Virus record (IMG/VR): IMGVR_UViG_3300028735_000013
Coordinates: 1 to 49,006 of that record
Length of the DNA: 49,006 nt
Direction: 5' to 3' (one strand)
Source of the DNA: a virus
The position numbers were made by a program, and so were the translations under genes. Positions 17,078 through 46,815 of this stretch are shown piece by piece. Numbering within the stretch: the stretch's first letter is position 1; each line of letters begins with the position of its first letter. The notes beneath the pieces were generated by a model. The model was given only the letters and a program-made list of their open reading frames with translations. It was not told where the DNA came from and searched no databases.

Positions 17078-17694
17078 ATCGATAGCTCCTCATAGAAGAC
17101 AGGCTGGACTGTATTCCCTGTCCTGACCAAAGGGAAACCACGGCGAGAGAATCCCTCAACAACGCCATTACGCTGGCCCACGCGCACGCGCGACCCTTTC
17201 TTGAGCTTAAGCATGGCGGTTTTTCGGTTGTTTAGCGTTACCACGGCTTTGTCGGTCTTCTCATGGTACTCACGCTGATAGTCTACGGAGTCCTGGGGGT
17301 TGTCCTTCATCTTCTTGAGGTACCAAGCGGTCTGGTAGTCGACCTCGATGTCCTCCTCTTTCGTATCCCGGTCGAACTGGTAGTTCTTGTATTTCGCCTC
17401 GATTCTCTTAGCGAGCTCGGGATCATAAGTCTCCACGTGGCCAATGAGTGGCTTAATCTGGTAATCATCCACCCCTCGATCGAGGTGATCGAAGTAGCCG
17501 CGGTCGTCGTTCTTGGATGGTCCCCCGGCGGAGTCCCCGGTGAAGAGGTCCGCCTGCCCCTTGAGGTGACCTTCGTTCCGGTCTTCAGGGGATACCCAAT
17601 ATGTCGTGGATCGACCATCTACACGGGTGATCTTCTCGGGCACGAGTCGCCCATACTCCTTCGACTTGGCTATCATAGGGATACATAATGTCAT
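17074..17694 (-). CDS. Protein with the shared LVP-WV-QxDLF module, unknown function
   Basis: 206 residues. The N-terminus (residues about 4-51) contains I-P-M-I-A-K-S-K, then R-L-V-P-E-K-I-T-R-V-D-G, T-Y-W-V-S-P-E-D, and ends in Q-A-D-L-F at 47-51. The same arrangement occurs in the giant proteins at 33376-38913 and 27832-32919 and in the protein at 41255-42469. The C-terminus (about 165-205) has a basic KOW/SH3-like look (L-K-K-G-S-R-V-R-V-G-Q-R-N-G-V-V). The pentapeptide fits the beta-clamp-binding consensus. The gene lies oddly among neck genes. A packaged or injected accessory protein is plausible but unproven. Confidence 0.65.
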   Translation of the reverse strand: MTLCIPMIAKSKEYGRLVPEKITRVDGRSTTYWVSPEDRNEGHLKGQADLFTGDSAGGPSKNDDRGYFDHLDRGVDDYQIKPLIGHVETYDPELAKRIEAKYKNYQFDRDTKEEDIEVDYQTAWYLKKMKDNPQDSVDYQREYHEKTDKAVVTLNNRKTAMLKLKKGSRVRVGQRNGVVEGFSRRGFPLVRTGNTVQPVFYEELSI

Positions 17695-18811: not shown

Positions 18812-18814
18812 AGC

Positions 18815-19066
18815 CTATGCCTTCTCGTATCCGGGGACCTGGGCGAGATAATCGAAGTCGGGCCCCTCGACGGAGGCGACCCCCTTCTCGTCGAAGTCGA
18901 TCGGATGACCGCTGACCGCGAAGACGCACTGTCCAGCCATGGTCTTGTTCTTGATCTTCCCGCCCGAGGCCTTCTTGGTGACCACAGGTTCGGTGGCCGG
19001 CGTGGTAGCGGCGGCCTGGTCCTGCCCCTCCGCGGGGGTCGTCTGTTCAGTGCTTCCGTGTGCCAT
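18815..19066 (-). CDS. Small head-cluster protein, unknown function
   Basis: 83 residues. The first 35 are low-complexity (Gln, Thr, Ala, Pro), followed by a basic stretch (K-K-A-S-G-G-K-I-K-N-K-T) and a short folded-looking end (V-F-A-V-S-G-H-P-I-D-F-D-E-K-G-V-A). TAGGAG precedes the ATG. Its place after the capsid gene would allow a head decoration or connector-accessory role, but nothing in the sequence proves this. Confidence 0.65.
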   Translation of the reverse strand: MAHGSTEQTTPAEGQDQAAATTPATEPVVTKKASGGKIKNKTMAGQCVFAVSGHPIDFDEKGVASVEGPDFDYLAQVPGYEKA

Positions 19067-19075
19067 GCAAGACTC

Positions 19076-19270
19076 CTACAGCTTATCCACCGCGGGGCTC
19101 GTCACCACATTCGTGACGTCGGCAGCGGTATGGGTCCCGGACCCCATCGCGCAGTGCGCGTTGTGGTCTGCTTTCAGCTCATTGACGAGGGTTATCGTCG
19201 CTTCCAGCCTCGTCGAGAGCGCTTTGAGCGCCGGGCAGGCCCGGCACATCTTGTCCTTCAGTTCGGGCAT
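19076..19270 (-). CDS. Small Cys-containing protein after capsid gene
   Basis: 64 residues with three cysteines (C-R-A-C-P near the start, C-A-M in the middle) and a central helix (R-L-E-A-T-I-T-L-V-N-E-L-K-A-D). AAGGAG lies seven bases before the ATG. It lies just after the hairpin that follows the capsid gene. No family is recognised. Confidence 0.6.
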   Translation of the reverse strand: MPELKDKMCRACPALKALSTRLEATITLVNELKADHNAHCAMGSGTHTAADVTNVVTSPAVDKL

Positions 19271-19293
19271 CTTTCTTCTCCTTCCTTAAGGGA

Positions 19294-19321
19294 AGCCCGA
19301 CCCGCCGAAGCGGACCGGGCT
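19294..19321 (-). terminator. Hairpin after the capsid gene (weak terminator or processing site)
   Basis: A 28-base inverted repeat (AGCCCG ... CGGGCT with inner GCCG/CGGC-type pairs around TTCG) begins six bases after the capsid stop codon. In the transcribed direction it is followed by TCCCTTAAGG and not by a U run, so it is a poor intrinsic terminator. Partial termination or protection of the very abundant capsid message would make sense, since the small gene after it keeps its own ribosome binding site. Confidence 0.4.
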
Positions 19322-19326
19322 GTAGA

Positions 19327-22246: not shown

Positions 22247-22290
22247 GCTGAAAAAGAAAAGGGCCGCATGCCCCGAGGGGTATGCGGCCC
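22247..22290 (-). terminator. Intrinsic terminator / attenuator in the leader of the head genes
   Basis: A hairpin of 30 bases (GGGCCGCATACCCC / GGGGCATGCGGCCC in the transcribed direction, 13-14 pairs) is followed at once by TTTTCTTTTT, a clear intrinsic terminator for minus-strand transcription. It lies only 14 bases before the protease start and overlaps no gene. The bases in front of it (22305-22279) resemble those before the terminator at 46766-46815. Since the protease and capsid must be transcribed through it, it may be an attenuator or target of antitermination. Confidence 0.8.
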
Positions 22291-22322
22291 GAATCTCCAT
22301 TCGACGCCGAAATTCTGCTCTA

Positions 22323-22351
22323 AATGTACAAGTTAAGATTGAAGCAAACAA
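22323..22351 (-). promoter_or_regulatory. Possible promoter for the head genes
   Basis: In the short gap upstream of the terminator there is TTGTTT, a 17-base spacer and TACATT, which would start transcription near 22316. A perfect TTGACA also occurs at 22364-22359, overlapping the stop codon of the upstream gene, but no good -10 box lies at the right distance. The gap is the only non-coding stretch here and is AT-rich. Evidence is modest. Confidence 0.35.
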
Positions 22352-22360
22352 GGGTAGATG

Positions 22361-22585
22361 TCAAGAGATCATTTTGCGACCTCGCAGTGCGGCCCTGTAT
22401 GCGGCCTCGGCGGCTTCATCCCCTCCCTGGGCTCTTCGCCTAAGGATCTCCACGTTCACCTGGTTGTCATCGAATACCGCCTCCATGGCGGCCTCGATCT
22501 CCTTCCCCTTCACCCCGGCTTCGGCCCGGCGCCGCCCGATGCGCGCGAGGAGCCCGTATAGCTCATCCCGTCTGTCCTGCTTCAT
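22361..22585 (-). CDS. Small basic helical protein, unknown function
   Basis: 74 residues from MKQDRRDELYGLL, the start chosen because GGAGG lies five bases upstream and the ATG overlaps the previous stop as ATGA. A longer open frame extends upstream but its sequence there is Arg/Ser/Thr-rich nonsense lying over the two real genes. The protein is mostly charged helix (R-R-R-A-E-A-G-V-K-G-K-E-I-E-A-A-M-E) and may bind a partner or nucleic acid. It ends at the promoter/terminator gap. No family is recognised. Confidence 0.65.
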   Translation of the reverse strand: MKQDRRDELYGLLARIGRRRAEAGVKGKEIEAAMEAVFDDNQVNVEILRRRAQGGDEAAEAAYRAALRGRKMIS

Positions 22586-22869
22586 GCTGTCCTCCATTCG
22601 CCACGCTCGAGCCAGCCATGCCAAATGTGCTTCTCGGCCCACTCGCGAGGCGAGTTCGGATAGCCGCCTCGCCCCCAGAAAATCGAGGGGCTCACCGTGA
22701 TCGTACCGTCTTCCCACGTTGAGACATCGGCGGTCAGAAGGAAACCGTCGTCGTCGCGCGGGACCGGGGCGGCGACCTGCCAGTGGCCGTCCTTGTCCTT
22801 CCAGTAGTCGCCGGGCTCGACGGGTGAGCTTGTGATATTGTCCGGATTCTCTATGCGTCGGCCCTTCAT
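22582..22869 (-). CDS. Small protein of the injected-protein block, unknown function
   Basis: 95 residues, overlapping both neighbours by ATGA. It contains P-G-D-Y-W-K-D-K-D-G-H-W-Q-V-A-A-P near 19-35 and several tryptophans toward the C-terminus (W-G-R-G-G-Y ... W-A-E-K-H-I-W-H-G-W-L-E-R). It looks like a compact beta-rich soluble protein. The tight coupling to the 1653-residue helicase suggests a partner or regulator of that protein, but this is only inference from context. Confidence 0.7.
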   Translation of the reverse strand: MKGRRIENPDNITSSPVEPGDYWKDKDGHWQVAAPVPRDDDGFLLTADVSTWEDGTITVSPSIFWGRGGYPNSPREWAEKHIWHGWLERGEWRTA

Positions 22870-27831: not shown

Positions 27832-30800
27832 TCACCTCACGATCAGCTTTTTGCCGTGATTAGCCTTTTTGAAGGCCTCTTCCTTGAAATCCTCGATACT
27901 CGCCTCATCCATCCAACCGAAGAATCCTGGCCGGTCATACTGCTTCAAGTAGGCTTCTTTTGCCTCCTTGGGGCTGTCGAAGCCGAGCATGACCTTGTCC
28001 TCATCGTACTTTCCTGTAACCGGGTCGTTCTGGTGGACAACAAAGACCTTTTCCGACTCGGGATTTGGGCCGATGTAGCAATTATGAGTAAAAAACCCGT
28101 TGGCAATATATGTTCCGGCGTCTGTCTGAATAGCAATGTGCTCACCTGTATATTCTTCAATTTTAGCAACCACTGACTTTTCAAATTTGAGGGATTGACC
28201 AAGGAAGTTCCTCTTCTTGAAGATGGCTGGCTTCACTATTTGGGTGAACTGAAGACCCGCGTTATCGGAATTCCATTCAGAATCAAGGAACAAGGTGTTG
28301 CCTCGAACCTTCCCTTTCATACCAATCTTCAATAGGGCAACCATGCAGTCGTTGAATGTATTTTCCTTGTCCTTGGCCTGGCATATCTGAACTTCTTTTC
28401 TTAGGTTCAAACACCCGTCAGTATCGTATAATCCAGCAAGAAACCCGCGACACCAGTCATAATCATCCAAGCGTTTCAAGGTAATAAAATCCCTAGTGAA
28501 ACCTACCTTGTTCACCCCGCGTATCGAAAGTTTTGCTATTTTCATAGTCGAAAGCACAATTCTTCCGCTTGCATCGATAGGTGCAATTGTTTGATTAGGA
28601 TGGCGGACTAACACATCCGAGGTCTTGAGCCCAAGTGCATCCCAGTATTCTTTGACCCTGATTAGCATTTCGATACTTTCAACACCCTTGGCAATGTCGC
28701 AGTATACTTGCCTCCCTGAGTCAAAATTTGATGATCCATCACCTTTGTACGCTCCGTAAAGGTATCCTGCCATATACTCTGGCGACTCACCCCGGTTGAT
28801 CGGCCTGTACAGCGAAATAAGTCGATCACCGATGCGAAGATCATCGGCGCGCTTCCACTCCTTATCCCGCTTGTTGATAAAAACATAGTGAAGATGGCCC
28901 TTCGTCGTTTCAATTATTCGACCGTCGTCAAGGATTATCCTGAGCATAGGCGAAGAAGATCGAGCGATGTTTACGACTTTCACTCCCTGATGCTTCCTAT
29001 GCCCGATAAGGCTCTTGTTTGGTTTTTCCTCTGAACCTATCAGCACGTCGCCAATCGCAATATCCCCGGCCCTCTTTTCCAAATAATCTAGCGTAAGGAT
29101 TTTAGTATCGGGCGATACGCAATCCAAGTGTTCTTTGTCCTTCCCGACAGTCCCTCGGATATACCCATAATCAAAATTCATCTTCGTTTTCCACTCGTGA
29201 CCGTCCTTGTCAACACCACGCCGCACGCTGCCCTTCCGGTTCTCGATGCTAATATCCATGCCATGGAGCTTCTCCCTGCCCTGGAGCTTATACCCGCTCC
29301 ATGTTGCGGACTTCTCCAGGCCGAGAGCTTTGAGGAACTCATTGTCCTCAATAAAGAACCGCTCGACGAGAGGGAGGACCTTCGCCTCGTAGACTTCCTG
29401 CTTAGGATGGTTCCCTTTCTTGTTCCAGGTCTCTTGGTATTCAGCCTGGGCCCCGCGCTTTGTGGCGAAAAACTGCTCGAGCGCGCGGGCGAAGCATTCG
29501 CAGGTCCGGTTCTGGTAGTCCGATTTTTGATCCTTCGCCATGCTCGAACGGAAGGTACGCGCTATCTGTCCGGGGAGCGATGACCAGTCGTCCGAGGCGT
29601 AGAAATGGCGCCCTCCCCGCGTGCCGAGGTAGTTGTCCATGAAGTGCGCCCACTCGTGCGCGAGCGTGAACCCAAAGCCCGTCTCCCCGTTCTGCATGGT
29701 GACGCCGATCGCGTGGTGTGCAGGAGAATAGACACCGACCGCGTTTCTGGCGTGCATGAGCACCTTCCCGGAATGGCTGATTTTAAGACCGAATCCTTTG
29801 GCCATGGAGGAGCGATCCCCGTAGACGCCATATACAGCGTCCAGGGCGGTCTTAATGTCCTGAATCTCCTTCGTATTTATCTCGTCGCCATTCTGGCGTT
29901 TCACGAGTACACCATAGTCATCCAAAAGGTTCTTGCGAGCACCCTTGTCCCCGTAGGATGTCTCCTGCCCCTTGGTGTAGGAGGAATAGTTCTCTTCAAT
30001 CTGTATTTTCATGTCGGAGAGCTTCTGCTTCATGTCGACGACGGCCTCGCGGATAGGTTTCCATCTTTCCGCCCCCTGCATGTCGAGAATGGCAGAGGCC
30101 ATGGAGAGCGTCGAGCTCATGGCCTTATTCTCCCCGAGCATCCTTACAGTGGTTTTCTTGGGCCTCATGCCGGAATAGAGCTTTGCCTGCTTTTCGTCAT
30201 ATCCCTTCGCGTGGGCCTTTGCTCGCTTCAGGTAGTAGTCCTGCATCGCGGCTAGGACATCGACCCCGACTCGGGCGTATAGCACCCCCAAAGGTCCCTT
30301 CCCCTCGCCCAGTCGAACCATATAGTCACTATCGCCGAGTTTCACGGCCTCAATGCGGTTACCTACACTGCCGAAGTACCTGTCGTCGATACGAGGTATC
30401 CAACCAGGAGAAGGCTTCTCCAGAATGTCCTTCTCGGGTACGAGGCTGATCTTGACCGGGATCACGTCCCGGTAATCGAGGTACTCCACCGTGTCTCCCT
30501 TCACGCGCCGCGGCTCGAAGGTGTAGGGCTCTGTGGGCTTCTCTTCCAGCTTTGCGCCGAAGAGCTGGGCCTCAGTCGCGGCCCGCGTCTCGGGCGAGGC
30601 CTTGGCCATAAGGGCGGCCACCTTGTCAGGCTCCCTCTCGGGGATGATCTCCTTGATGTCCTCGGGCTTCACGGCGAGCGTTTCCTTGTCCGTAAGGATA
30701 TAGAACACCCCGTCGGTGAAGTGGCTGATCTTCCCGATGGCATTCTTCCCGTTCTTCCCCTTGAACGACACCTTGGCGCCGTTCTTGAGCTGGGCGAGGA

Positions 30801-32919
30801 GCTTCTGGCGCCAGAGGGCCTCCTCGACATCCGCCTCGGCAAACATATCGAGCTGGGCCACGAGAGGCTTGTCTTTCGTGGCCTCCCCAGGGAGGACCCA
30901 CACGGTCGTCTCGAAGCGTGTCCCGTCCCTCGTCACGAAGATATTTTTCGGTACCAGCTTCGGATTCTTTCTCGATTTCTCCAGCATGGGAATGATGAAA
31001 AGGGCTTTTTTGAGCGGCTCCGACTCTTGCATATCGCTATTAGCGGTGGTATACTCTGAGGTGGAGGGTCTAGAAATGCCCGATTTTGAATCCGATTCAG
31101 TCGAATACTTTGAACGCGACGACACTCCCTTCGTCGAGGATCGCGCGACCGGTGATATTTTCTGGGTGTTTTCTAATAAGCCTTTCGAGAAAATGCCCAG
31201 AAACCTTGGAGCAAACGTCTGGGCCGAATCTCGTCTGCACGGCCACATCATCGACCGGGCTGAAGCGCTTCGGCTTGCTGTTGCGATGGGCCGGTAACAC
31301 TGCATAGATTTTTCAGTCCTTCCGCTTCTTGCTCGCTCTATAGCTTCCGCCAAATGTTTTTTTGTCTTATCTTTCAACTTCCCAATTATCCCTGATATTA
31401 CTCTCTCGGATTCTATGACGAATGGACGGGCGATTTCAAATGATGACGACCTTCGCTCGGCATAGGCTTTGGGCGATTGACTTGCCATCCACGCCTCTTG
31501 ATAAAGCGCCAGTTGAGCGCTTCCCAAATAATCGAGTACTTCTTTGTCCGCATTTTCTAACGCCTTTGCCTCGCGCCATATCTCATAGAACAGATGGCCT
31601 TCCTCCTTGGCTTCAGCCATCGCCTTTGTGGTTAGCTGGACCTCGGATATCATCCCATTCGGCAGCTTCACGTTCATGTTTATGTCACGGTACCCGACCG
31701 GTGATTGGGGAGTGGCAAAGTTATTCTTCAGCCTCATCACCCGTGGGTCGGCCATGAAGAACTCCACGGCGGACGCGAGGGACTCGAGTCCATCGAATAT
31801 CAATGTATGGCCATCGAAGTCGTAGACCTGGGAAGCGTCGGAAGCCCCATCCTCGCGCATCTTCTCTTCGACGCGGCCGCGGTCCTTCAGCTTGTTCCGC
31901 GACTGTACTTCTATCGCCCCGAGCTTCTTCGCGGCCGCCTCGATGGACGCCTTGAAGCCCTCCCTGGCGTCCTCAGCCAGACGGTAGAGTTCCCCGATGT
32001 CCCCGGAAGGCTGTACGAGGTTCTTCTTGTCGATCTTTTTCTGGTAGTTTGGGTCAAGTAGGCGAGCCACCTGCTCTGAAGAATGCCGTGGAGAGAAGGA
32101 CTCCTCTCCCTCCTTCTGTCTCGGAGCGGCCTTGCCATCTCCAGGCCGAACCAAGCGCATCTGCTTGACAACGGATCCGTCCTTTCGGTGCACGTCGACT
32201 ACCCGCCGGACCAGGTGGGAGAGGTCGCGCGCTTTCGCTAGAATAGGAATCGCGAGAAGCGTCGAGATTGCCTTCTTTAGACCAAGCCTCTTCGCCGATT
32301 CGATAGCCGCCGGCTCGTCAACCAGGCCGGCCTCGATAAGCTTCTTGTAGTAGTCGGGGTCTTCCTTGAGGTGATCCTCGGCGATCTTGCGGGCCTCCGC
32401 GCGGCCCTCGTGGTGCTCCATCTCGACCTTAATCCCCACGGCTAGCTCGGGGTTGTGGGTTTCGGCTACACCGAGAAGCTCCTTTTCCGTCAAGAGGCCC
32501 GCTGAGGATACCGCCTTCCACATGGGGCTCGATTTCTGAATGACGAGCTTCTTCGCGACTTCCCTGCGCTCCATCTTGGACTGAGGCCGAACATCGTCGA
32601 ACTTAGAGACGATCGCTAGCTTCCCGTCCTTAAGCCCTACGCCGAGTACTACTCCACGCTGCCAGTCGCCGCCGGCCTCGAAATAGGCGATGTCCTTCCC
32701 ATAGCGGATCAGCTCGCAGTTCTCGAGGTCGAGTCCCTGAGGGAATCCATCCAGGTCTTTCAGTTTGCTCTTGTTGCCGTAGATGTCGATCTTCCCATCT
32801 TCCCCCGCGAACAGCTTCATGAAGGCCGTGTAGAATCGGCTATCCAGCCTCCCCTTGGGGATCGATTTCGCGAGGCTCTCCTCGTTGTCGGTGTTCTTCC
32901 TGATATACAATCCGGGCAT
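27832..32919 (-). CDS. Giant multidomain (polyvalent-type) protein: RelA/SpoT-like, metallopeptidase, intein-split pyrophosphatase-like
   Basis: 1695 residues as one open frame; GGAGG before ATG. Residues about 300-500 resemble a RelA/SpoT nucleotidyltransferase (D-F-D-G-H-T-L-I-F near 368; G-Y-R-D-I-N-M-N-V near 407; E-V-Q-L-T-T near 424). A shared module ending Q-L-D-M-F lies at about 650-693. A zincin H-E-W-A-H-F near 1087 marks an LPD-type peptidase. The C-terminus (G-Y-I-R-G-T-V-G ... D + C-Y-I-G-P) is an inorganic-pyrophosphatase-like domain interrupted by an intein. Residues about 543-629 are Ser/Arg-rich and lie over a plus-strand gene, so the frame may really be two genes, the second starting near 31032, although that ATG has no ribosome site. 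Domain calls are from remembered motifs. Confidence 0.7.
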   Translation of the reverse strand: MPGLYIRKNTDNEESLAKSIPKGRLDSRFYTAFMKLFAGEDGKIDIYGNKSKLKDLDGFPQGLDLENCELIRYGKDIAYFEAGGDWQRGVVLGVGLKDGKLAIVSKFDDVRPQSKMERREVAKKLVIQKSSPMWKAVSSAGLLTEKELLGVAETHNPELAVGIKVEMEHHEGRAEARKIAEDHLKEDPDYYKKLIEAGLVDEPAAIESAKRLGLKKAISTLLAIPILAKARDLSHLVRRVVDVHRKDGSVVKQMRLVRPGDGKAAPRQKEGEESFSPRHSSEQVARLLDPNYQKKIDKKNLVQPSGDIGELYRLAEDAREGFKASIEAAAKKLGAIEVQSRNKLKDRGRVEEKMREDGASDASQVYDFDGHTLIFDGLESLASAVEFFMADPRVMRLKNNFATPQSPVGYRDINMNVKLPNGMISEVQLTTKAMAEAKEEGHLFYEIWREAKALENADKEVLDYLGSAQLALYQEAWMASQSPKAYAERRSSSFEIARPFVIESERVISGIIGKLKDKTKKHLAEAIERARSGRTEKSMQCYRPIATASRSASARSMMWPCRRDSAQTFAPRFLGIFSKGLLENTQKISPVARSSTKGVSSRSKYSTESDSKSGISRPSTSEYTTANSDMQESEPLKKALFIIPMLEKSRKNPKLVPKNIFVTRDGTRFETTVWVLPGEATKDKPLVAQLDMFAEADVEEALWRQKLLAQLKNGAKVSFKGKNGKNAIGKISHFTDGVFYILTDKETLAVKPEDIKEIIPEREPDKVAALMAKASPETRAATEAQLFGAKLEEKPTEPYTFEPRRVKGDTVEYLDYRDVIPVKISLVPEKDILEKPSPGWIPRIDDRYFGSVGNRIEAVKLGDSDYMVRLGEGKGPLGVLYARVGVDVLAAMQDYYLKRAKAHAKGYDEKQAKLYSGMRPKKTTVRMLGENKAMSSTLSMASAILDMQGAERWKPIREAVVDMKQKLSDMKIQIEENYSSYTKGQETSYGDKGARKNLLDDYGVLVKRQNGDEINTKEIQDIKTALDAVYGVYGDRSSMAKGFGLKISHSGKVLMHARNAVGVYSPAHHAIGVTMQNGETGFGFTLAHEWAHFMDNYLGTRGGRHFYASDDWSSLPGQIARTFRSSMAKDQKSDYQNRTCECFARALEQFFATKRGAQAEYQETWNKKGNHPKQEVYEAKVLPLVERFFIEDNEFLKALGLEKSATWSGYKLQGREKLHGMDISIENRKGSVRRGVDKDGHEWKTKMNFDYGYIRGTVGKDKEHLDCVSPDTKILTLDYLEKRAGDIAIGDVLIGSEEKPNKSLIGHRKHQGVKVVNIARSSSPMLRIILDDGRIIETTKGHLHYVFINKRDKEWKRADDLRIGDRLISLYRPINRGESPEYMAGYLYGAYKGDGSSNFDSGRQVYCDIAKGVESIEMLIRVKEYWDALGLKTSDVLVRHPNQTIAPIDASGRIVLSTMKIAKLSIRGVNKVGFTRDFITLKRLDDYDWCRGFLAGLYDTDGCLNLRKEVQICQAKDKENTFNDCMVALLKIGMKGKVRGNTLFLDSEWNSDNAGLQFTQIVKPAIFKKRNFLGQSLKFEKSVVAKIEEYTGEHIAIQTDAGTYIANGFFTHNCYIGPNPESEKVFVVHQNDPVTGKYDEDKVMLGFDSPKEAKEAYLKQYDRPGFFGWMDEASIEDFKEEAFKKANHGKKLIVR
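28081..29121 (-). mobile_element. Intein with LAGLIDADG-type endonuclease (in pyrophosphatase-like domain)
   Basis: 347 in-frame residues. It begins with C-V-S-P-D-T-K-I-L-T (block A) and ends F-F-T-H-N, followed by Cys+1 of the host protein. Block B is recognisable as T-T-K-G-H-L-H-Y. Two dodecapeptide-like motifs are seen: Y-L-Y-G-A-Y-K-G-D-G-S near residue 130 and F-L-A-G-L-Y-D-T-D-G-C near 235. Removal restores the host sequence K-E-H-L-D-C-Y-I-G-P, which fits the domain. The intein is probably self-splicing and, if the endonuclease is active, mobile. It looks somewhat more AT-rich than its host gene. Confidence 0.92.
31027..31055 (+). promoter_or_regulatory. Sigma70-like promoter on the plus strand
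   Basis: TTGCAT, a spacer of exactly 17 bases, then TATACT. This is four of six bases at -35 and five of six at -10, with ideal spacing. Transcription would start near 31062, just before GGAGGG and the ATG at 31076. It is the only good plus-strand promoter with a gene behind it that I found, and it runs against the whole surrounding region. Confidence 0.6.
31076..31297 (+). CDS. Small plus-strand gene embedded in a minus-strand gene, unknown function
   Basis: 73 residues, beginning M-P-D-F-E-S-D-S-V-E-Y-F. GGAGGG lies seven bases upstream and a promoter just before that. The protein has a natural mix of residues: an acidic start, an aromatic centre (D-I-F-W-V-F-S-N-K-P-F) and a helical end (R-A-E-A-L-R-L-A-V-A-M-G-R). 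The antisense minus-strand translation is Ser/Arg-rich and featureless, so this strand is the more likely coding one. A small regulator or an expressed accessory gene (moron-like) is possible; no family is recognised. Confidence 0.6.
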   Translation: MPDFESDSVEYFERDDTPFVEDRATGDIFWVFSNKPFEKMPRNLGANVWAESRLHGHIIDRAEALRLAVAMGR

Positions 32920-33375: not shown

Positions 33376-36300
33376 TCAACCCTCCTTTATTATTATACCC
33401 AATCGTGGGCCGCTTCGATAGATCATGTGTATCGACTTCTCGACTTTCAGACGCTTTCTGAACGCATATCCCGACCTTCCATGGTCGTACTCGACTTCAT
33501 ATTCCGGATTCATGGCGATGATTCCCTGAAGAACGTATGGAGAGGGCACGTCCTGGACTCCCTGGAGCTTCATTCGCTCTGCGATGTCCTCAACTGGTTT
33601 CCATTTATCCGAGGCCATAGAGTCAATGTATTCGGCCTCCTTGCGGGCCCTATAGGCCTTCATGACCGACCCCTTGAGCGCCTCAGCAATACCAGTCTGC
33701 TCGAAGACCGGATCGTTTACTGCGCCTCCATCCGACTCAGCCTCTCCAGAGCGCACGGCTGCGATTATCCGCGCCCGGTCCTCGGCGACATAGGGGTTTA
33801 GTACATCCTTAATGTCTTTCTTGGAGAATGACCACCCCTTCGAGGCGATCTCAACCTTCCCATCAGCGTTGACCTTGCAATACCGGGTCTCCCGGCTGGT
33901 CGATAACCACAGCATATCCCGATAATGGTCTCGCTTGAAATCCTCCGCCTGTCCAGCGAAGTCCGCTGGGGAGTAGAGAGATTTTAGCCTGACCAGATCT
34001 TCCTTTGTCGGGCTTGCGACGTGTACCAAGTGCTCCCCGCCGCCCTGCTTCCACTCCTCCCAATGGGGAGTCCACCCTTCCCCCTCCTGGGAAGCGGGCT
34101 TCAAGAGCATTGTCTGCTTCTTATGGTTGATTGTCATGGCGACAAAGGGTCCGCTCCTCATCATGAACACATCGCCCGGTTTGTAAACCCTACGCTCCGC
34201 CTTGTCGTAGATGAAGTCTGGCGGGTCATCTTTGAGGAGCTCAAGATTATGGAATTCCGGGTTGTTCCTTAGGGCCTCCTCCATATTGTAGAGCTTCCGG
34301 AGGCGGTTCTGATACTGGACGGTTCCCTTGTCCCCCTCGAACCCGCGGATTGATCCTCGCATGAGGCTGAGAGCCGCGAGCGTCTGGTGGACTTTCTGGG
34401 CGTTCGCCTCCTTGATCTTCCCGGCCTTTATCTTCTCCATCTCCGCGCGCCGCTCGTTGGCCTTCTCCTTGTCACCCCACTCCTCCGTGAGGGCGAGGAG
34501 GAGCTCGTCGGGATCTACGAATGAGTCATCGTTCGGATTGGTGAAGACGTTAGACTTGGTGCGGAGGAGCTGGTCGATCCAGTTCGCTTTGTTCTGAACG
34601 AGGTTGACCGAGTAGTTATCGATCGTCCCTGCGGTGAGATAGGTATTGAGCGCCACGGACGCCTGCTTGTTCCCCTGGCGGTCGATGCGTCCGTTCCGCT
34701 GGATTAAGTCCGACGGACGATAGGGGATGTCGAAGTGGTGCAGGGCGGCGCTGTTTTCCTGGAGGTTCACCCCTTCCCCAAGGGTTGGTGTCGTCCCAAT
34801 GATTACTTTGTACTTCCCGGAATTGTAGCCGTCGATTGCAGCGGATACCTCCCTTTCTAGCGCCGTGTCGTTCTTCTTCCCCCCGGCCTTCGTGATGCCG
34901 TTCACCACGACAATCTCGGATTCCTTGAATCCCTGTGCGACGAGGGCGGCCCTGATCTTGTCGTGCATGTTGAAAGATCCGTCGCCCGATAGGACTCGAT
35001 CGCAGAATACGACCTGCCCGCCTCCCGTCGCCTTGAAGCTCTCCATGGCGTTCTCGGCGAGCTTTGACAGCTTCGGATTCTGCCATCCGGCATACTTCGA
35101 TGGATTGTAGAGCTCGAGGTCAAGCGAGGCCGTCCGCATTCGAGAGTAGAAGGTGAGGAAGTTCTGGCCGGGATACTTCTCGTCCTTTCCGTCACTATCC
35201 AGGGACTTGAACTCCTCGAGCTGGGCCGAAAGGTCGCGAAGCACACCCGTCTGATCTTCCTGCATGGGAATGACATTTGGGTTGTTGTTAGCTTTCGGCT
35301 TCGGGAGTCCGATCTTCGTGGGATCGTTTTGGAGGTCGGTATACTTGAAGAACATATCCTGGAGGGTTCGCAGGTTCTTGAAGCCCTTGAGGACCTTCGC
35401 GTCTATGGTCTTGCCCGTGCCCCAGTCACACTTCGGCTGCACCTCGAAATCGGCGAAATTCCGGATGAAGTCGTCGATCGTCCTGATGTTCAGGCGGTCG
35501 AGCTCCTCCGGTGCGACGTGCATGAGCATGTTGTAGTATTCGAGCGGGCTGTTCGTGAGTGGCGTGGCGGTAAGAAGGAAGACGTTCTTGCCGTCATGAC
35601 CCCGCCGGATGAACTCGCTCTTCTTGAATAGGCTCATAGCGCGGTCCGATCGCCGACCGTCATTCATTCCGGTCTCTCTTGAGAGGCTCGAGCTGAAGAG
35701 GTTCTTGTAGTTGTGGGCCTCGTCCACGAACAGGGCATCGCAGCCGAAGTCCTCGAAGTTGATGGTCTGATTCGTCTTCCCGGCTTCGAGCTTCCCGCGG
35801 GCGGCCTCCTTGTCCTGCTCAACCTTCCGGGAGCTCTTCGCGGCCGCCTTGTCCATGATCTGGCCGGCCACGATGTCGTCGGTGATGCGCTGGTCCTCCT
35901 CGGGCCTAAGCTGTATCTCGGAGGCCGCGGACTCGGGGAGGATGATCACGTCGAAGTCCCCATTCGCGAGCTCCTGGTACATCTTGTATCGCTTCACCTG
36001 GCTCGAGTATCCCTCCGTCTCGGGGTCCACGGCTCCCACTTTGAGGCCAGGCATGGCTTTGGCGATCTCCTTTACCCAATCCTTCACCTTATTGTTTGGG
36101 ACCTGGACCATGGGCCGCTTAATCTTCCCCTCCTGCCGGAGGAGTCCGATTAGGCCGATCGCGGCAAGGGTCTTCCCAAAGCCCGTCCCGAGCGCCGTAA
36201 TCCCCTTTCCGGCTCGGTAAAGGTGGTGAATGGACTGCCATTGATGCCCTCCCAGGACGATCTTGGGGCTCCACCCGTCTATTCTAACAGCATAGGTCTT

Positions 36301-38913
36301 CGTCGGAGCCCCGATTTCCGAGTTGAACTTCCGGTTGTAGAGTTCTTCAAGTTGCTTCCTAACCTCTGGGTTGTTCGACACCCAGTTTTTGAAGTTATCC
36401 TCAGCGTTCCGGTTGAAGGTCTCGGTGTCGATCCTGCTTGAGCGCTGTTTTTGCATGTTGAGAAAGTAAACGAGCTCATGATTGTAGTCCTGCCAGTCCC
36501 CGGCGGCTACGGTGCGCCCCTTCTCGCGCCAACTCTTCCCCCGGATGTATTGGTCCTCGTCGTAGATGACACCCCATTTCCCATCCTCGTTTCTAGCAAG
36601 GTGTAAGTCACCGAAGGAGTACCCAAAGTTCATTCCGTTGCCGTCCCGAGCCCACTGGTCAATGACATCATCGGGTATCCACGAGGACTGAGGTGTGAAA
36701 TCTGCTTCCTCAATCGGAACCCAGCCGACGGCCTTCTCTAACTCATCCACGCCATACTGCCATTTCTCCCGCTCGGTCACGAACTTCTCTCCAGGGTGCG
36801 TCTCTATCGCTTTACGAAGGGCGTCCACCTTATCCCAGGCGTTTCCTGCGATGAAGTCCTCCCGGAGTTCCCAGGTGCCTTCAGGCGTGAGGAAGGCGTC
36901 GGGGCTCTCCTGGAGGGAGGCCTTGAGCCCCTCGAAGTCGTTCGGGAAGTAGGCGCGGAGCTGCTTCGGCGTGGCCTCGATCATGTTCCTCTGGAGGGTG
37001 AGGAGGGCCGTGACCGCCGGATTGTGCCCGTCGACGATCTCGATCTCCTTCGCATAGACGTTCTGCTTCGTGAGAAGGTCGTCGTCTATGCCCACGAGGC
37101 CCTCGTAGACGCCCGCCAGGGCCGCGTTGGCGTTGAGGACCTTCCGGATATCCTTGTCCTCTCGCGGCGCCACGCCATAGGCCTCATCGTAGGCCTGGAG
37201 GAGGCGCCGGGCCTCCCTCTGGAGGTCGTCCACGGGCTCGTCGGCCCTCATGGCGTCCCGGATGCCCTTGACGGCCTCGGCTATCGCCTTGACGCGCTCG
37301 AGCTTTTCGGCCGCCACCTCGTCGGCGCCTTTCACGCGCTCCCAGCGATGGTTCGCGTTCAAGCGGTAGGCCCGGCCGCCCTCGCTTTTCGTGGCTCCCA
37401 CGGTCAGGGTCTTGGCCGCGACAGCCTCCGCCTCGCCCTCGGTGAGCGCGAGCTCGTCGCCCTTCTTCTTGGGCGCCGCTGTGCCTTCCTTCGTCATCGA
37501 ACGCAGCCGGTCGAGGTCCTCCACCGTCATGTCCGCCTCGGGCTCGAAGCGCACCGCGGCCGCGTCCATATCGGCGAGCGAGAGCTCCCCCTCTACCACG
37601 TCTCGACCCCAGTTTCCGGCGCCCTCCGCGAGCGCACCGAGGATGTGCTCCGGCTTCTCCTTGTAGTAGGTTCCCTCGACCCATGTCTCATTCCAAAACC
37701 CGGCGGCCTTGATACCCTTATCGTCCAGCTGAGCGAGGCGCTGTCGAATTTCCTCAGGGTACTTCCGGAAAAAGATGATATCCGGTTGAACGCCAGTCTG
37801 CGTATGCTTGAAGGATCCATTTGGCAGCCTTACGGCTCCCATGAACTGACCTTTTTTGAGCATCTCGGCGCGCCAGTCCCGATTCCCCTTACCATCCATC
37901 ACACCAGGGTGAACGATCAGCGCCATAGATCCTCCATCGGCAAGAGCGTCCAAAGACCTGGAGAGGAAATAGCGGTCAAGACTTTTCTCCTCAGGCATAT
38001 CCATAAAGGAGGTGAGTACCGACCGATCCCCAAATGGTGCATTCCCGACAACGCGCGAAAACTGGAGTTTATTACAAAGATTGAACTGCTCGAAGCTCCC
38101 GGAATGTATCGCTGCGCGTCCCTGTAAAATCGAGGCGGCTGCTGCCGTCCTTTTATCGAGCTCCACACCATGAAGATCTAGTCCTTCCGGAGCAACTTCG
38201 AAAAACACGCCCGTCCCACACGATGGCTCGAGGACCGACTCGCCGATCTTAACCGGGACTATCTTGTCAAGCATCTTCCACGTCATCTTTGCCACCGGAG
38301 GAGAGGTAAAGAAGTCGTAGAGGACTCCGCGCTCGTCGTCCGCCTTCACTCCGCCGAAGCCCGAGTACCTCCGGACCTTATCAATGTCCTCATCTGAGAG
38401 CTCGTCGCGCGGTTTAAGAAGGATCTCGGCTACCTCCTGGTTTAGCTTCGACCTCGCCGATGGGGCTAGGTGTTTACCTTTGCTCCCCCATGATCCGTAA
38501 TCTCTGAACGGAGTCTCCTTGATGGATACTGACATGTTACGCCTCTTCGCGTCATCCGGGGAGGACTCCTTCTCGGTCTTCTTAAGCTCTACGAGGTCGC
38601 CGTAGCCCTTATCCTGCTTGTGATCCTTACTGCCCAGTTTTGGTCTCTCCGTCTTGACCACCGGCGTCAGCTCCTTGGGTTTTTCTATACCTAGTTTCGG
38701 CTCATCTATCGATGGGGTATCGACGTCGAAGAGGTCGAACTGGGCCGCCCGGGGCTTCTCAGCTTTGGCCTCGCTGGGGAGTACCCATACTCTTTTCTGA
38801 AATACTGCTCCATCCTCATGGATGGTAACAATCTTCGGAACCAGTCGGGGGCTACGCCTAGCTTTGAAAATTCTTAATCGTGCGTTGTAAAAAAATTCCT
38901 GCAAGAAGCTCAT
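33376..38913 (-). CDS. DarB-like giant protein: adenine methylase joined to SNF2-like helicase
   Basis: 1845 residues from the ATG at 38913 (GGGGG five bases upstream; an in-frame TTG directly before it is also possible). Residues about 10-62 carry the shared N-terminal module ending Q-F-D-L-F. The methylase has E-P-S-C-G-T-G near 228 (SAM motif I) and G-N-A-P-F-G near 289, an N-x-P-F form of the N6-adenine motif. The helicase has G-T-G-F-G-K-T near 910, V-D-E-A-H near 1063, T-A-T-P, and N-G-R-I-D-R-Q-G near 1405. This layout is that of DarB-like phage anti-restriction proteins, which are packaged and injected. Probable role: protection of incoming DNA. Confidence 0.85.
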   Translation of the reverse strand: MSFLQEFFYNARLRIFKARRSPRLVPKIVTIHEDGAVFQKRVWVLPSEAKAEKPRAAQFDLFDVDTPSIDEPKLGIEKPKELTPVVKTERPKLGSKDHKQDKGYGDLVELKKTEKESSPDDAKRRNMSVSIKETPFRDYGSWGSKGKHLAPSARSKLNQEVAEILLKPRDELSDEDIDKVRRYSGFGGVKADDERGVLYDFFTSPPVAKMTWKMLDKIVPVKIGESVLEPSCGTGVFFEVAPEGLDLHGVELDKRTAAAASILQGRAAIHSGSFEQFNLCNKLQFSRVVGNAPFGDRSVLTSFMDMPEEKSLDRYFLSRSLDALADGGSMALIVHPGVMDGKGNRDWRAEMLKKGQFMGAVRLPNGSFKHTQTGVQPDIIFFRKYPEEIRQRLAQLDDKGIKAAGFWNETWVEGTYYKEKPEHILGALAEGAGNWGRDVVEGELSLADMDAAAVRFEPEADMTVEDLDRLRSMTKEGTAAPKKKGDELALTEGEAEAVAAKTLTVGATKSEGGRAYRLNANHRWERVKGADEVAAEKLERVKAIAEAVKGIRDAMRADEPVDDLQREARRLLQAYDEAYGVAPREDKDIRKVLNANAALAGVYEGLVGIDDDLLTKQNVYAKEIEIVDGHNPAVTALLTLQRNMIEATPKQLRAYFPNDFEGLKASLQESPDAFLTPEGTWELREDFIAGNAWDKVDALRKAIETHPGEKFVTEREKWQYGVDELEKAVGWVPIEEADFTPQSSWIPDDVIDQWARDGNGMNFGYSFGDLHLARNEDGKWGVIYDEDQYIRGKSWREKGRTVAAGDWQDYNHELVYFLNMQKQRSSRIDTETFNRNAEDNFKNWVSNNPEVRKQLEELYNRKFNSEIGAPTKTYAVRIDGWSPKIVLGGHQWQSIHHLYRAGKGITALGTGFGKTLAAIGLIGLLRQEGKIKRPMVQVPNNKVKDWVKEIAKAMPGLKVGAVDPETEGYSSQVKRYKMYQELANGDFDVIILPESAASEIQLRPEEDQRITDDIVAGQIMDKAAAKSSRKVEQDKEAARGKLEAGKTNQTINFEDFGCDALFVDEAHNYKNLFSSSLSRETGMNDGRRSDRAMSLFKKSEFIRRGHDGKNVFLLTATPLTNSPLEYYNMLMHVAPEELDRLNIRTIDDFIRNFADFEVQPKCDWGTGKTIDAKVLKGFKNLRTLQDMFFKYTDLQNDPTKIGLPKPKANNNPNVIPMQEDQTGVLRDLSAQLEEFKSLDSDGKDEKYPGQNFLTFYSRMRTASLDLELYNPSKYAGWQNPKLSKLAENAMESFKATGGGQVVFCDRVLSGDGSFNMHDKIRAALVAQGFKESEIVVVNGITKAGGKKNDTALEREVSAAIDGYNSGKYKVIIGTTPTLGEGVNLQENSAALHHFDIPYRPSDLIQRNGRIDRQGNKQASVALNTYLTAGTIDNYSVNLVQNKANWIDQLLRTKSNVFTNPNDDSFVDPDELLLALTEEWGDKEKANERRAEMEKIKAGKIKEANAQKVHQTLAALSLMRGSIRGFEGDKGTVQYQNRLRKLYNMEEALRNNPEFHNLELLKDDPPDFIYDKAERRVYKPGDVFMMRSGPFVAMTINHKKQTMLLKPASQEGEGWTPHWEEWKQGGGEHLVHVASPTKEDLVRLKSLYSPADFAGQAEDFKRDHYRDMLWLSTSRETRYCKVNADGKVEIASKGWSFSKKDIKDVLNPYVAEDRARIIAAVRSGEAESDGGAVNDPVFEQTGIAEALKGSVMKAYRARKEAEYIDSMASDKWKPVEDIAERMKLQGVQDVPSPYVLQGIIAMNPEYEVEYDHGRSGYAFRKRLKVEKSIHMIYRSGPRLGIIIKEG

Positions 38914-38922
38914 CAAAACCCC

Positions 38923-41253
38923 CTAGCTGTTATACAGCTCGTTTATCCGCTCCATGTACCCAGGTGTTTTATCCGAAGGATTCTTTATCCCCTTTCCGGC
39001 GAATTCCTGCTTGGCCTTATCAACAGCCTCGCCCCATTTTTTTTGCTGGCCTTTCAGCTTCGCCATGGCCGCATCAAAGGTCGTAACCTTCTCTTTCTTG
39101 CCCGGTGGCGTCCATCGTGCCCATGAACCTCGACAATTCCCAGACCATGCAACTTTCCCGTTCCTCTTTACAAGCAAAAAATGCCACTTCTCTAGCTCAA
39201 CATCATATACCATGCCGTCATATTGTATTATTTTAGGGGCATGAGAAGGTTTGCCGTTCTTAGAAGGTTTTTCCTTTGCAAAGTAATGTCTGAATTTCGA
39301 TTTTTTAATATTTATATTATAGCAATTAGTTTTGAGCACATAACTACCATTCTTGAATTTAGACAGAACACCCTTTTGCCTATGAACCCATACTGAAGGC
39401 ATCCAGCCCGCTTTCACAATCAATTCACACATATCAGCCATCATCTTTGGAGAGGAAGTTCGAATAGTTATTTCTTGCGAATCATCCGAATATGATTTTG
39501 CATGATGCTGCCCATTTCGATGAGAGCCATCACCCAAACTAAAAGCATCTAGGAATTCTCGAATATATTCAGGTGTAAGATTCTTGATAAAATCAGGTAT
39601 ATATTTTTGCTCAGCATGAACGCCAATATATTCCTTGAAATGCTCTGTAGCGGCACCATAAAGATATACCGCACCATTGGCATGCTTTAATAGTTTAGCC
39701 ATAGAAGGTAAATCGTTTGTGATTCTTCCAGGGAATTTTTGCGTAAGTTTAATCTCGCGTCTTCGTGTATTCCCCTCTGAAAGAAACCATGCCCATAGCC
39801 TTACATAGTCTCTATAAGATATTTCAACGCCGCCAACTTCAATTGTTTTAGGCGGTTCTGTTCCAGCCCATTCACCAATTGCCATTGGCAAATAATAAAC
39901 AGCGCGCTTGATAATATCTTTTGCTGGCTCCTCTTTTAAAATCTTCTGCTTCCAAAGGTTGCGTGTTGTAAAAAGCATGTGATGATCAGGCGTAACTAGC
40001 ATGTCATAATTAAGGCCGTTGAAATGGATCATTTCGCCTGTATAGTGATAAGCTATCTTTTGCGTATATCCCACAAAGCCTACTTCAAGCGTGTCTGGAT
40101 TTATCGCCATAATCTTTTCGCTGCCGGTCAGGTCTTTGAATAACATCCAACCCGCATCAGTCAAAACTTCAGTATCATCAGAATAACACCATGGATGCTG
40201 CGCCCCAGCCGCTACCCAATTATCATTCGCCTTCCGCCCTACTCTTGTCTTGCCTTCCCATATCGCAATCTTGGCATAGGGATCGTCTATCTTCTCATCA
40301 TTGAGCGGAACATCAGACCATAGCGCGACAACGCCATTGATTTTCCTGCAATGCGGGCAGGTGGCCTTATCAAGCACTTCAATGCGTTGGTAATAGAGCT
40401 TTTCGCCTGGTTCGGCCATACTTCGCTGGTCTTTGAGGAACGCCGTATTCATGTTGTCGGCAACTTCGGTTTCAACGATTCGCTGCCAGTCGCGGTTCAG
40501 GCTTCCCATCTTGTCAAACAACTCTTGCGCAACTTCGGATTTTGACTTTTTGTCGATAATCCCGCGCATAAGCGTTTGTCGGATGGCTTTCTTGGTATCC
40601 TCGCTCGCGGATCGCACATACTGCGCCGCGCTTTCCTGCGCTATCTGAAGCCTGCCTAAATCATAATCTGAAAGTGGGAATAGCTTATTCAAATTTTTGA
40701 TATCCTCTGATATCCAGTCCAGGCTTCTCCCTCGATAGGCTGCATCCTGTAAATGCAATTTCGATACAGCTTCCCATGTATTGTATTTAAGCATCCGATT
40801 GAGAATTCTGCCTGTGGAAACGGCATCGAGCACGATTCTCTGCCCTGCATTATCGAGCTTGCGATTTAGGAATTTTTCAATAGCGCCGATAAATTCTTTC
40901 CATTGACGCATTGAAATAGGCTGGCCTGTCTCCGGAGAATAAAGAATCTTGCCTTTCCAAATGAGCGGCTCATCATCAATCGCCTTGGAAAACGTCGTTA
41001 CCAATGGCATATCTAATGCATTGCAAATGGTCTTATACGCCTGATCCAGTATGCCGGCAAAGTACAACACCCATTTTTGCACAAGGTCATCGTGAATCTG
41101 ATACGCCGAACGTTCCTTCTCATCTTCTTTTTCCCGCTGCTTGAACGTGATAGGAACGCCAAGCGCTTTGGCAAGCGCCTTTGTCGCGAGTAGGTATTTA
41201 TGTCTTCGGTTCGCCGCGCTAACATCACGCACGGTCAAGTGTACGTTTGCCAT
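38923..41253 (-). CDS. MuF / SPP1 gp7-like head morphogenesis protein, interrupted by an intein
   Basis: 776 residues, 425 without the intein. Before the intein is a helical region, then E-V-A-D-N-M-N-T-A-F and C-P-H-C-R-K-I-N-G-V. After it the host protein continues C-R-G-S-W-A-R-W, so splicing restores H-P-W-C-R-G-S-W. The C-x-x-C ... H-P-x-C-R pattern is the hallmark of the MuF/SPP1 gp7 minor head family. It follows the portal with one gene between, the usual neighbourhood. These proteins sit at the portal and can be injected. No separate toxin domain is seen at the short C-terminus. Confidence 0.88.
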   Translation of the reverse strand: MANVHLTVRDVSAANRRHKYLLATKALAKALGVPITFKQREKEDEKERSAYQIHDDLVQKWVLYFAGILDQAYKTICNALDMPLVTTFSKAIDDEPLIWKGKILYSPETGQPISMRQWKEFIGAIEKFLNRKLDNAGQRIVLDAVSTGRILNRMLKYNTWEAVSKLHLQDAAYRGRSLDWISEDIKNLNKLFPLSDYDLGRLQIAQESAAQYVRSASEDTKKAIRQTLMRGIIDKKSKSEVAQELFDKMGSLNRDWQRIVETEVADNMNTAFLKDQRSMAEPGEKLYYQRIEVLDKATCPHCRKINGVVALWSDVPLNDEKIDDPYAKIAIWEGKTRVGRKANDNWVAAGAQHPWCYSDDTEVLTDAGWMLFKDLTGSEKIMAINPDTLEVGFVGYTQKIAYHYTGEMIHFNGLNYDMLVTPDHHMLFTTRNLWKQKILKEEPAKDIIKRAVYYLPMAIGEWAGTEPPKTIEVGGVEISYRDYVRLWAWFLSEGNTRRREIKLTQKFPGRITNDLPSMAKLLKHANGAVYLYGAATEHFKEYIGVHAEQKYIPDFIKNLTPEYIREFLDAFSLGDGSHRNGQHHAKSYSDDSQEITIRTSSPKMMADMCELIVKAGWMPSVWVHRQKGVLSKFKNGSYVLKTNCYNINIKKSKFRHYFAKEKPSKNGKPSHAPKIIQYDGMVYDVELEKWHFLLVKRNGKVAWSGNCRGSWARWTPPGKKEKVTTFDAAMAKLKGQQKKWGEAVDKAKQEFAGKGIKNPSDKTPGYMERINELYNS
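39136..40188 (-). mobile_element. Intein with LAGLIDADG-type endonuclease (in MuF-like protein)
   Basis: 351 in-frame residues starting C-Y-S-D-D-T-E-V-L-T and ending K-V-A-W-S-G-N before Cys+1. Block B is T-P-D-H-H-M-L-F. Endonuclease-like motifs are L-W-A-W-F-L-S-E-G-N near 130 and F-L-D-A-F-S-L-G-D-G-S near 215. The penultimate residue is Gly in place of the usual His, a known variation that can affect splicing rate. The DNA is visibly AT-rich compared with the region as a whole, consistent with horizontal gain. It lies exactly at a conserved metal-site motif of the host protein. Confidence 0.92.
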
Positions 41254-41254
41254 G

Positions 41255-42469
41255 CTACATCCTGGCTATTTTAATCAACCTTGCTGACATATTGCGCCAT
41301 CTAATGCCTGCCCCAGAACGCAAGAAACTGGAAATCAGGTTCTTTTTAGATTGTGCTGTTATATCGTCATTTTGCTTGGCTATCCAGCCTTTGTACTCTT
41401 CTTTGAACCCGCTTATAAGGCGGTTTAGTACTTCAGGGCTATCTGCCATTTTATCAATCGGTAACACCTCTTTGATTTCGGCAAGCGTTAAATAATTGGG
41501 GTCTTTTATCGACTTGGCTATCGTTTCTGGCTCTTTCTCTTTTTGTTTCTTTAGATAATCTTTATATGCATCCATCACAAAAAGAGCACCGCCAACAATG
41601 TCGTTTTCGTAAGCCCACTTCGCAGCCCCAAGCATAAACCTTTCAATGTCTGCATATTTATCGCTTCCGGCGTACCTTGCAATAGAGCTATCAACAATAT
41701 TGAATATATCTGTTATCGTTTCATCGGTATTCGCTGGAGGCCCATTCTTTTTTTTGCCTATAAAAGTAGTCTCCTCGAATGGCAACTTCTTCCCATCTTT
41801 GTCCAAATGGCGCGGATCGGTCTTCATGCGTCTCAAGCCTTCCGGCAAAGGCTCTTCACCTGGATTAGCATTATTGCCGTTGGCAACCTCCCATATATCT
41901 CCCTTTTTATTTATATAATCCCTTTCCTTCATGGGTGCAGTGTACATATTCAGCTCATACTTCCCGTTTTCTAGCCCGTATACTTGGAAGTGCACAATCT
42001 TTTTCGCCGGATTTCCGTCTTTATCATAAAGCGCAAGCATATACTTGTTAGTCTTTGAGACCCCAGGCTTCGCTTGCCCGATCGTTACTTCGTTGAAAAG
42101 GTCATCCTTATCAACATAAAGCCCTTTGTCGGCTAGATTACCCAACGTCTCGCTTACTGCCTCTGATAACGTATCATGGTAGACTTTGTATGAGCTCCCT
42201 TTCTTTTTCTTCTGTTCTTGCTGTGGCGCAGCTATCTCCGGATCGTCATAGCCAGGCTCAAACAGATCGCCCTGCATAACAGAATATTTGCCTTGCTTGG
42301 CTTCCTCCGGCAAAACCCACGCCATGCGCTGGAACGTGCCACGCTGCCCTTGCACCGTTATCGGTTTCCGCACAAGTTTAGGATTGTGCCGCGCCTTCAA
42401 AAATTGGCTATAAAGCGGCCCAAGTTTAATCACAAACATTGTCGGCTTGTTATTTCCAGATTCCATCAT
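41255..42469 (-). CDS. Accessory virion-associated protein with shared N-terminal module, unknown function
   Basis: 404 residues. The N-terminus (about 20-70) has F-L-K-A-R-H-N-P-K-L-V-R-K, A-W-V-L-P-E-E-A-K and then Q-G-D-L-F, the same layout as in the giant proteins. The next part (about 90-175) includes H-F-Q-V-Y-G near 163 and Y-E-L-N-M-Y shortly after, a pattern I have seen in other phage proteins without known function. The C-terminal half is helical. It lies between portal and MuF genes and has lower GC content than the portal. Likely packaged with the MuF protein, by position. Confidence 0.7.
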   Translation of the reverse strand: MMESGNNKPTMFVIKLGPLYSQFLKARHNPKLVRKPITVQGQRGTFQRMAWVLPEEAKQGKYSVMQGDLFEPGYDDPEIAAPQQEQKKKKGSSYKVYHDTLSEAVSETLGNLADKGLYVDKDDLFNEVTIGQAKPGVSKTNKYMLALYDKDGNPAKKIVHFQVYGLENGKYELNMYTAPMKERDYINKKGDIWEVANGNNANPGEEPLPEGLRRMKTDPRHLDKDGKKLPFEETTFIGKKKNGPPANTDETITDIFNIVDSSIARYAGSDKYADIERFMLGAAKWAYENDIVGGALFVMDAYKDYLKKQKEKEPETIAKSIKDPNYLTLAEIKEVLPIDKMADSPEVLNRLISGFKEEYKGWIAKQNDDITAQSKKNLISSFLRSGAGIRWRNMSARLIKIARM

Positions 42470-46597: not shown

Positions 46598-46751
46598 TGC
46601 CCCTGTCCTTACATTGATGGCGGAGGTATCCCCGAGCCTTGCGCCCGGTCTTCGTGATGATGGTCACAAGGGTATCGTCGACGATGATGATATCGTCGGA
46701 AATGGCGCTATTGATGTACTTTACCTTCCCGCCGCAATTTTTGCAGACCAT
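46581..46751 (-). CDS. Small zinc-ribbon-like protein
   Basis: 56 residues beginning M-V-C-K-N-C-G-G-K-V-K-Y, a Cys-x-x-Cys knuckle, with a further Cys near the end (H-Q-C-K-D-R). The centre is a strand-rich stretch D-I-I-I-V-D-D-T. GAGGTGG lies close upstream of the ATG. It comes just after the terminator at 46766-46815 and overlaps the terminase small subunit start. It could bind zinc and nucleic acid. Its function is unknown, but its position argues for a role in late regulation or packaging. Confidence 0.55.
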   Translation of the reverse strand: MVCKNCGGKVKYINSAISDDIIIVDDTLVTIITKTGRKARGYLRHQCKDRGNANKE

Positions 46752-46765
46752 CCTACCACCTCGCG

Positions 46766-46815
46766 TAAAACAAAACGGGCCGACACCGCCGCTGCTTGAG
46801 CGTGGTATCGGCCCG
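46766..46815 (-). terminator. Intrinsic terminator upstream of the packaging genes
   Basis: In the transcribed direction, CGGGCCGATACCACGC and GCGGCGGTGTCGGCCCG form a long stem, followed at once by TTTTGTTTTA. It lies between the 46896-47120 gene and the terminase group and sits 15 bases before the zinc-ribbon start. The preceding 22 bases (46825-46804) resemble those before the 22247-22290 terminator. A lone TATACT at 46861-46866 could start transcripts that then meet it. Confidence 0.82.

Follow-up and report, generated by a model that had tools for sequence, protein, structure and literature searches.

The window analyzed here, the 49,006-base virus record IMGVR_UViG_3300028735_000013, carries a small plus-strand gene (31076–31297) encoding the 73-residue protein P0001, which lies opposite a minus-strand gene (27832–32919) for the 1,695-residue polyvalent protein P0002, recognized from its open reading frame and domain matches. 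We consider it probable that P0001 is a Tis1-like immunity protein whose partner, encoded antisense to this gene family, is a Tas1/Apk-like toxin domain inside a large phage polyvalent protein. With slightly less assurance, we propose that the two make up an antisense-nested toxin–immunity cassette fit for sites in the middle of giant proteins, and that the window is a natural instance where the two genes have been separated by a second copy, which allows the constraint on each strand to be read by itself. Direct support comes from homology of the gene, its start signals, selection in both frames, and resemblances in sequence and fold.

The Small Gene and Its Relatives

The small gene is preceded on the plus strand by a sigma70-type promoter (31027–31055), with TTGCAT at 31027–31032, a spacer of 17 bases, and TATACT at 31050–31055, and by the Shine–Dalgarno sequence GGAGGG (31063–31068), seven bases upstream of the ATG at 31076, from which 73 codons run to a stop at 31295–31297. 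A preliminary description of this DNA had reported such a promoter, ribosome site and 73-codon frame nested in the 1,695-codon minus-strand frame, and the coordinates were verified in our analysis. As the sole query, P0001 gave no matches in viral contigs, phage records, Pfam or PHROGs, and its homologs were reached only via flanking sequence and then via profiles. They are found in three phage contigs (L006, L007 and L018) and in two contigs of bacterial metagenome-assembled genomes (MAGs), from Treponema (L030) and Hydrogenedentes (L031).

In the phage record IMGVR_UViG_3300048575_000392 (L002/L007), both halves of P0002 are present at 84–87% identity, fused in one frame of 1,281 codons. This record is without ~200 bases of the window segment and retains the promoter, ribosome site and ATG, and its plus-strand frame encodes 68 residues homologous to P0001 over the entire length (score 129), with a similarity past residue 25 that exceeds all 5,000 shuffles. 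The remaining four relatives were found by a profile of two small proteins, together with profiles of the toxin domain, while the 68 and 394 genomes around the two MAGs contained no further members, and a promoter-pattern scan of viral contigs returned only two already known homologs in addition to unrelated loci. In all five relatives, the small gene is wholly antisense and inside the toxin gene, opposite the tail of a RelA/SpoT-type domain; in L007 this is the C-terminal tail, which the window has at another place. Counting the window, the small gene stands beside this toxin domain in all six loci, and in L018 the toxin module is found within a different polyvalent protein (ART-PolyVal, InPase, LPD1, LPD3), such that the toxin and the small gene seem to be transferred together.

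The start signals are likewise shared, with similar elements preceding all six homologs: in the relatives, these take the form of TTGnnn (TTACGC in L030), 17–18 bases, TATACT or TATGCT, GGAGG, and ATGCC. The promoter elements are kept in all six even though the minus-strand protein is poorly conserved over that stretch. The combined pattern of promoter, Shine–Dalgarno sequence and ATG was absent from 20 mononucleotide shuffles of the 354 kb of DNA examined, and the unshuffled DNA has it in the six homologous genes and in one unrelated locus, which had entered the set via a similar-pattern search. We note that the open plus-strand frame is unremarkable taken alone, because the third codon positions of both strands face each other, and random recoding of the window segment gives rise to a plus-strand stop in only ~22% of versions. 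What is beyond chance is the conserved protein together with the conserved start signals, rather than the mere openness of the frame. The homologs, their shared start signals and the conservation of the protein in relatives thus bear out the earlier proposal that this is a real gene of the plus strand, with a promoter to itself.

Probable Identity of the Toxin Domain and the Small Protein

All six minus-strand domains match Pfam RelA_SpoT (PF04607), the window domain with 27.5 bits against a cut-off of 27. When the toxin profile was compared to solved structures, the best match was Tas1 (6OX6 chain A, E = 1.7e-8), followed by YwaC (5.7e-5) and Rel (1e-3), so that the domain resembles Tas1 more closely than it does the housekeeping alarmone synthetases. 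In the window, the toxin core spans residues 300–481 of P0002 (31477–32022, minus strand). The motifs YD..GHT, GYR and E-V/I-Q are conserved, the catalytic Asp, Tyr and Glu having been checked, and, with respect to the Apk-type syn2 and syn3 signatures (..T and GxN), syn3 reads GVN in L030 and DIN or DVN in the other members. As judged from the profile matches, the minus-strand domain is probably a (p)ppApp-synthetase toxin domain of the Tas1/Apk-like kind. Aligned outgroup toxins are without most of the ~60-residue tail segment that lies antisense to the small gene in this clade, which suggests that, of the two, the small gene came first and the toxin tail was later overprinted on it.

For the small protein, AlphaFold models were obtained for P0001 and for its L031 counterpart (predicted local distance difference test scores of 75.8 and 78.7, respectively), and a fold search with both was performed against 350,542 PDB chains. 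The top match for both models is 6OX6 chain B, that is, Tis1, the immunity protein of Tas1, with probabilities of 0.69 (P0001) and 0.98 (L031) and VIA Z values of 5.7 and 5.4, the next rows standing at 3.4 and 3.7. Several points weigh against this assignment. The matches are weak in absolute score (E values of 0.46 and 0.11), and their Z values lie below 8, a range where a common arrangement can explain the likeness. The models rest on six sequences, with only one of the five models per run being fairly confident. Furthermore, a PDB sequence search gave no match of the small protein to Tis1, and its comparison to the same-strand open reading frames (ORFs) of distant homologs, described below, gave an hhalign E value of 0.012 over just 15 columns. 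A fold search against viral models produced no clear match for the small protein.

Taking these points into account, the strong point is one of convergence: each score alone is weak, but searches starting from opposite strands meet on the two chains of one complex, 6OX6, and it is for this reason that we read the pair as toxin and immunity. In addition, an HD_4 hydrolase, sought as an alternative form of immunity, was not found in the four phage contigs searched, so that the antisense gene is the evident candidate for the immunity function. Based on sequence and predicted fold, the small protein is thus probably the antidote to the RelA-like toxin domain.

We also note a different arrangement among distant phage homologs of the toxin (L043–L051, L053–L055, and Bordetella phage PHB04, L014/L052), where the toxin is followed by a conserved same-strand ORF of ~70 residues (IENEGALFRGPARGVPQEVW...) with no Pfam match. 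In PHB04, an HD_4 hydrolase comes next after this ORF, and similar-looking frames, probably HD_4-type as well, are present in most of the other distant homologs. The ORF may represent an uncharacterized immunity family. The PHB04 ORF was also considered as a homolog of the antisense gene, a relationship not established by the 15-column match.

Selection on Both Strands

As the third codon positions of the two frames face each other, mirroring of conservation from one strand into the other is a serious concern. In our recoding test, the minus-strand protein was held fixed, codons were randomized by local usage, and plus-frame similarity was scored, with the reverse test performed likewise. Among the relatives, the plus-frame similarity lies ~10–11.5 standard deviations above the expectation forced by the minus-strand protein, the reverse test gives z ~6, and a sliding version of the test along the toxin gene peaks at the small gene, in the correct frame, over a background of 0–3. 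Single sequences yield z values of 6.9 (L007) and 7.5 (L018), compared to 0.1–2.0 for controls. Transversions at four-fold sites of the minus frame are less frequent with a two-fold plus codon (14/79) than with a four-fold one (23/57), counted over sequence pairs that are non-independent.

In the window, the toxin core is followed in order by a copy of the toxin tail (copy 1; 31303–31476, minus strand) and then by the small gene (copy 2). The equivalent DNA of copy 1 in the five relatives also encodes the small gene; in the window, the plus frame antisense to it is broken by a TAG at 31463, and its z value of 2.1 is at about the control level. For copy 2, conditioning on the minus frame shows conservation of the plus frame (z = 4.0), and conditioning on the plus frame shows none of the minus frame (z = −0.8). 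It follows from these recoding results and from the TAG that the relatives have constraint on both strands, and that each window copy serves one strand. The minus reading of the small gene, a Ser/Arg-rich linker (31076–31302, minus strand), is without detectable selection, in agreement with the earlier remark that residues ~543–629 of the minus-strand frame resemble no protein. Copy 2 was also considered as encoding a conserved minus-strand protein, and this was rejected, as the resemblance to relatives is fully accounted for by conservation of the plus strand. The converse situation, a broken plus frame opposite conserved minus residues 543–629, was not encountered: the toxin-tail copy of the window is the one place where the plus frame is interrupted.

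Origin of the Separated State and Alternative Explanations

The overlap segment is present once more in the window than in its relatives, and this additional copy of ~200 bases parts the toxin tail from the small gene. Both copies match one and the same L007 segment, in register. The simplest reading, and a mechanism that we infer, would be a tandem duplication of the overlap, in which the inner copy was left with the toxin tail after losing the promoter and start, and the outer copy retained the promoter, start and small gene. The divergence of the segment tells against this: the two copies are too diverged for direct mutual alignment, and the tail copy differs from L007 at 16/17 four-fold sites, compared to 42–45% in the adjoining core and 10–25% in the flanks. 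Because of this excess over the core, we take the segment to be a divergent allele that recombination may have brought in, and we make no claim that the duplication occurred within this phage itself. Faster evolution after release from the overlap was considered and set aside, since the synonymous sites of the segment are saturated.

A quite possible, if somewhat doubtful, alternative is that the immunity gene of the window was inserted from elsewhere, in moron-like fashion or by recombination, rather than arising by tandem duplication. This would fit the saturated synonymous sites of the tail copy, as well as the sharp fall in identity to L007 at the start codon, following a promoter stretch that is ~90% identical, but sits poorly with the in-register correspondence of both copies to the same single L007 segment. 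Such an insertion concerns the route only and is compatible with an immunity function. The preliminary description had offered either an overprinted pair or an inserted moron. A simple foreign moron dropped between two genes is not supported, since the five relatives carry the same gene antisense within minus-strand coding sequence; the overprinted pair stands as an ancestral antisense overlap, with both frames constrained in these relatives, but not as a description of the window, where the pair is now separated.

It is also conceivable, although unlikely, that the small gene is real and antisense yet has no immunity role, acting instead as a regulator of the late operon, or through a transcript that represses the polyvalent gene by interference. 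The strong-looking promoter does face the late operon, and the absolute weakness of the fold match leaves room for such a role; however, two independent searches meet on the two chains of a toxin–immunity complex, the small gene accompanies this toxin domain in every locus found, and selection at the level of the protein makes an RNA-only role unlikely. Finally, it is highly improbable that the plus frame is open by chance, as a mirror image of a conserved minus-strand protein, since, although facing third positions do partly mirror minus conservation, the plus-frame similarity is far above the mirrored expectation, the start signals are conserved among homologs, and in the second copy of the window the plus frame alone is conserved.

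Proposed Mechanism and Its Implications

In the toxin–immunity reading that we prefer, the immunity gene of the relatives would be expressed from its own sigma70-type promoter and ribosome site, wholly antisense to the C-terminal tail of the toxin. With toxin and antidote on shared DNA, the two would travel together as a single cassette, including into the interior of a giant protein that offers no downstream slot. In the window, one copy would serve as the toxin tail and the other as the immunity gene, the minus strand of which would stay open as a linker owing to the fusion between both halves of the polyvalent protein. As for toxicity, neutralization and delivery, all of which we infer, the small protein would be produced independently of the late operon, and would bind the toxin and block nucleotide access in the producing cell, and the toxin would target the ATP/ADP of a competitor or of a newly infected cell.

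If true, the nested antisense layout would explain how a toxin domain can shuffle into the interior of giant proteins with its protection brought along. Antisense gene pairs in which the functions of both strands are open to testing are rare, and this would be one; the separated state in the window offers a direct test of the needs of each strand. The layout also gives a functional lead for a small gene that is not recognized by any protein family library searched.

The Polyvalent Protein and Its Surroundings

P0002 is polyvalent in that it combines InPase, DUF5661 and RelA_SpoT in one large protein, encoded between the portal and major head protein genes; Pfam gave no match to a MuF domain in this protein. 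Its layout comprises DUF5661, the toxin domain, the linker, an LVPK/WVLP module, a second half matching phrog_22901, and an inorganic pyrophosphatase domain. The latter is interrupted by an intein with a LAGLIDADG endonuclease domain (28081–29121, minus strand; residues 1267–1613), which L007, with a frame shorter by ~414 codons, appears to be without. The second half is fused to the first in L007, as in the window, and is a separate gene in L003–L006. Ahead of the second-half gene in L004 and L005, at about 5,700–5,950, the gap corresponding to the fused linker of the window holds a short frame on the same strand that is conserved between them (MDILKVDPDYDCADTD.RFE..PK).

A similar module, PKLVPK...V.RDG...WVLPxEA, opens several large minus-strand proteins (17074–17694, 27832–31032, 33376–38916 and 41255–42469), and in L006 and L018 it is also found after the toxin module. 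It may serve as a signal for packaging or processing. The preliminary description places all other genes on the minus strand, and our results are consistent with this. The gaps between minus-strand genes at 18812–19326, 22270–22865 and 46598–47273 (515–676 bases) have no recognized gene on either strand, and the plus frames examined in them gave no PHROG match. The G+C content drops to 41–47% at 39000–42000, compared to mostly 52–63% nearby, which suggests that this stretch was recently acquired.

Comparison with Known Systems

The closest comparison is with Tas1–Tis1 (Apk1), the type VI secretion pair of PDB 6OX6, the two chains of which are the best sequence match of our toxin domain and the top fold match of our small protein. 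Tas1 is a type VI effector that makes (p)ppApp, and proteins of the Tis1 type have been described as blocking the acceptor site of such synthetases (PMC11782079). Our system differs from this pair in that the toxin domain lies in phage polyvalent proteins, the small gene is read antisense to that of the toxin, and the small protein has no detectable sequence similarity to Tis1.

The MuF toxins Apk2 with IapK and Aph1 (PMC12226406, PMC11699363) are alike in having a phage-borne adenosine 3′-pyrophosphokinase-type domain, a location in the head-gene region, and a small immunity gene. In phages, apk2 genes are followed by iapK and then by aph1 (PMC12226406), an order that corresponds to that of the distant homologs described above (toxin, ~70-residue ORF and HD_4 in PHB04). 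However, whereas the immunity genes described for this toxin class come after the toxin, together with the Aph1 hydrolase, here the small gene is antisense and overlapping, with no HD_4 hydrolase found in the phage contigs and no MuF domain by Pfam.

RelA/SpoT domains have been described in polyvalent proteins with InPase and other domains, and noted in spirochaete (pro)phages (PMC5512222); our proteins likewise combine RelA/SpoT with InPase, and one of our relatives is from a Treponema MAG. When searched by word, the text of that paper yielded neither antisense nor opposite strand. A toxin–immunity pair antisense on the same DNA was likewise not found in the open literature searched, subscription journals being mostly outside this coverage.

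Antisense overlapping genes are known in bacteria, for example ano of E. coli (PMC5960689; reviewed in PMC7457138), which, like our small gene, lies antisense within a longer gene. Genes of this type are mostly of unclear role, whereas for each of the two products considered here a partner is proposed, and the window supplies a case in which the genes are separated. Thus, while RelA/SpoT domains in polyvalent proteins and antisense overlapping genes in bacteria are already known, what appears to be new is the antisense nesting of a putative immunity gene in its probable toxin gene.
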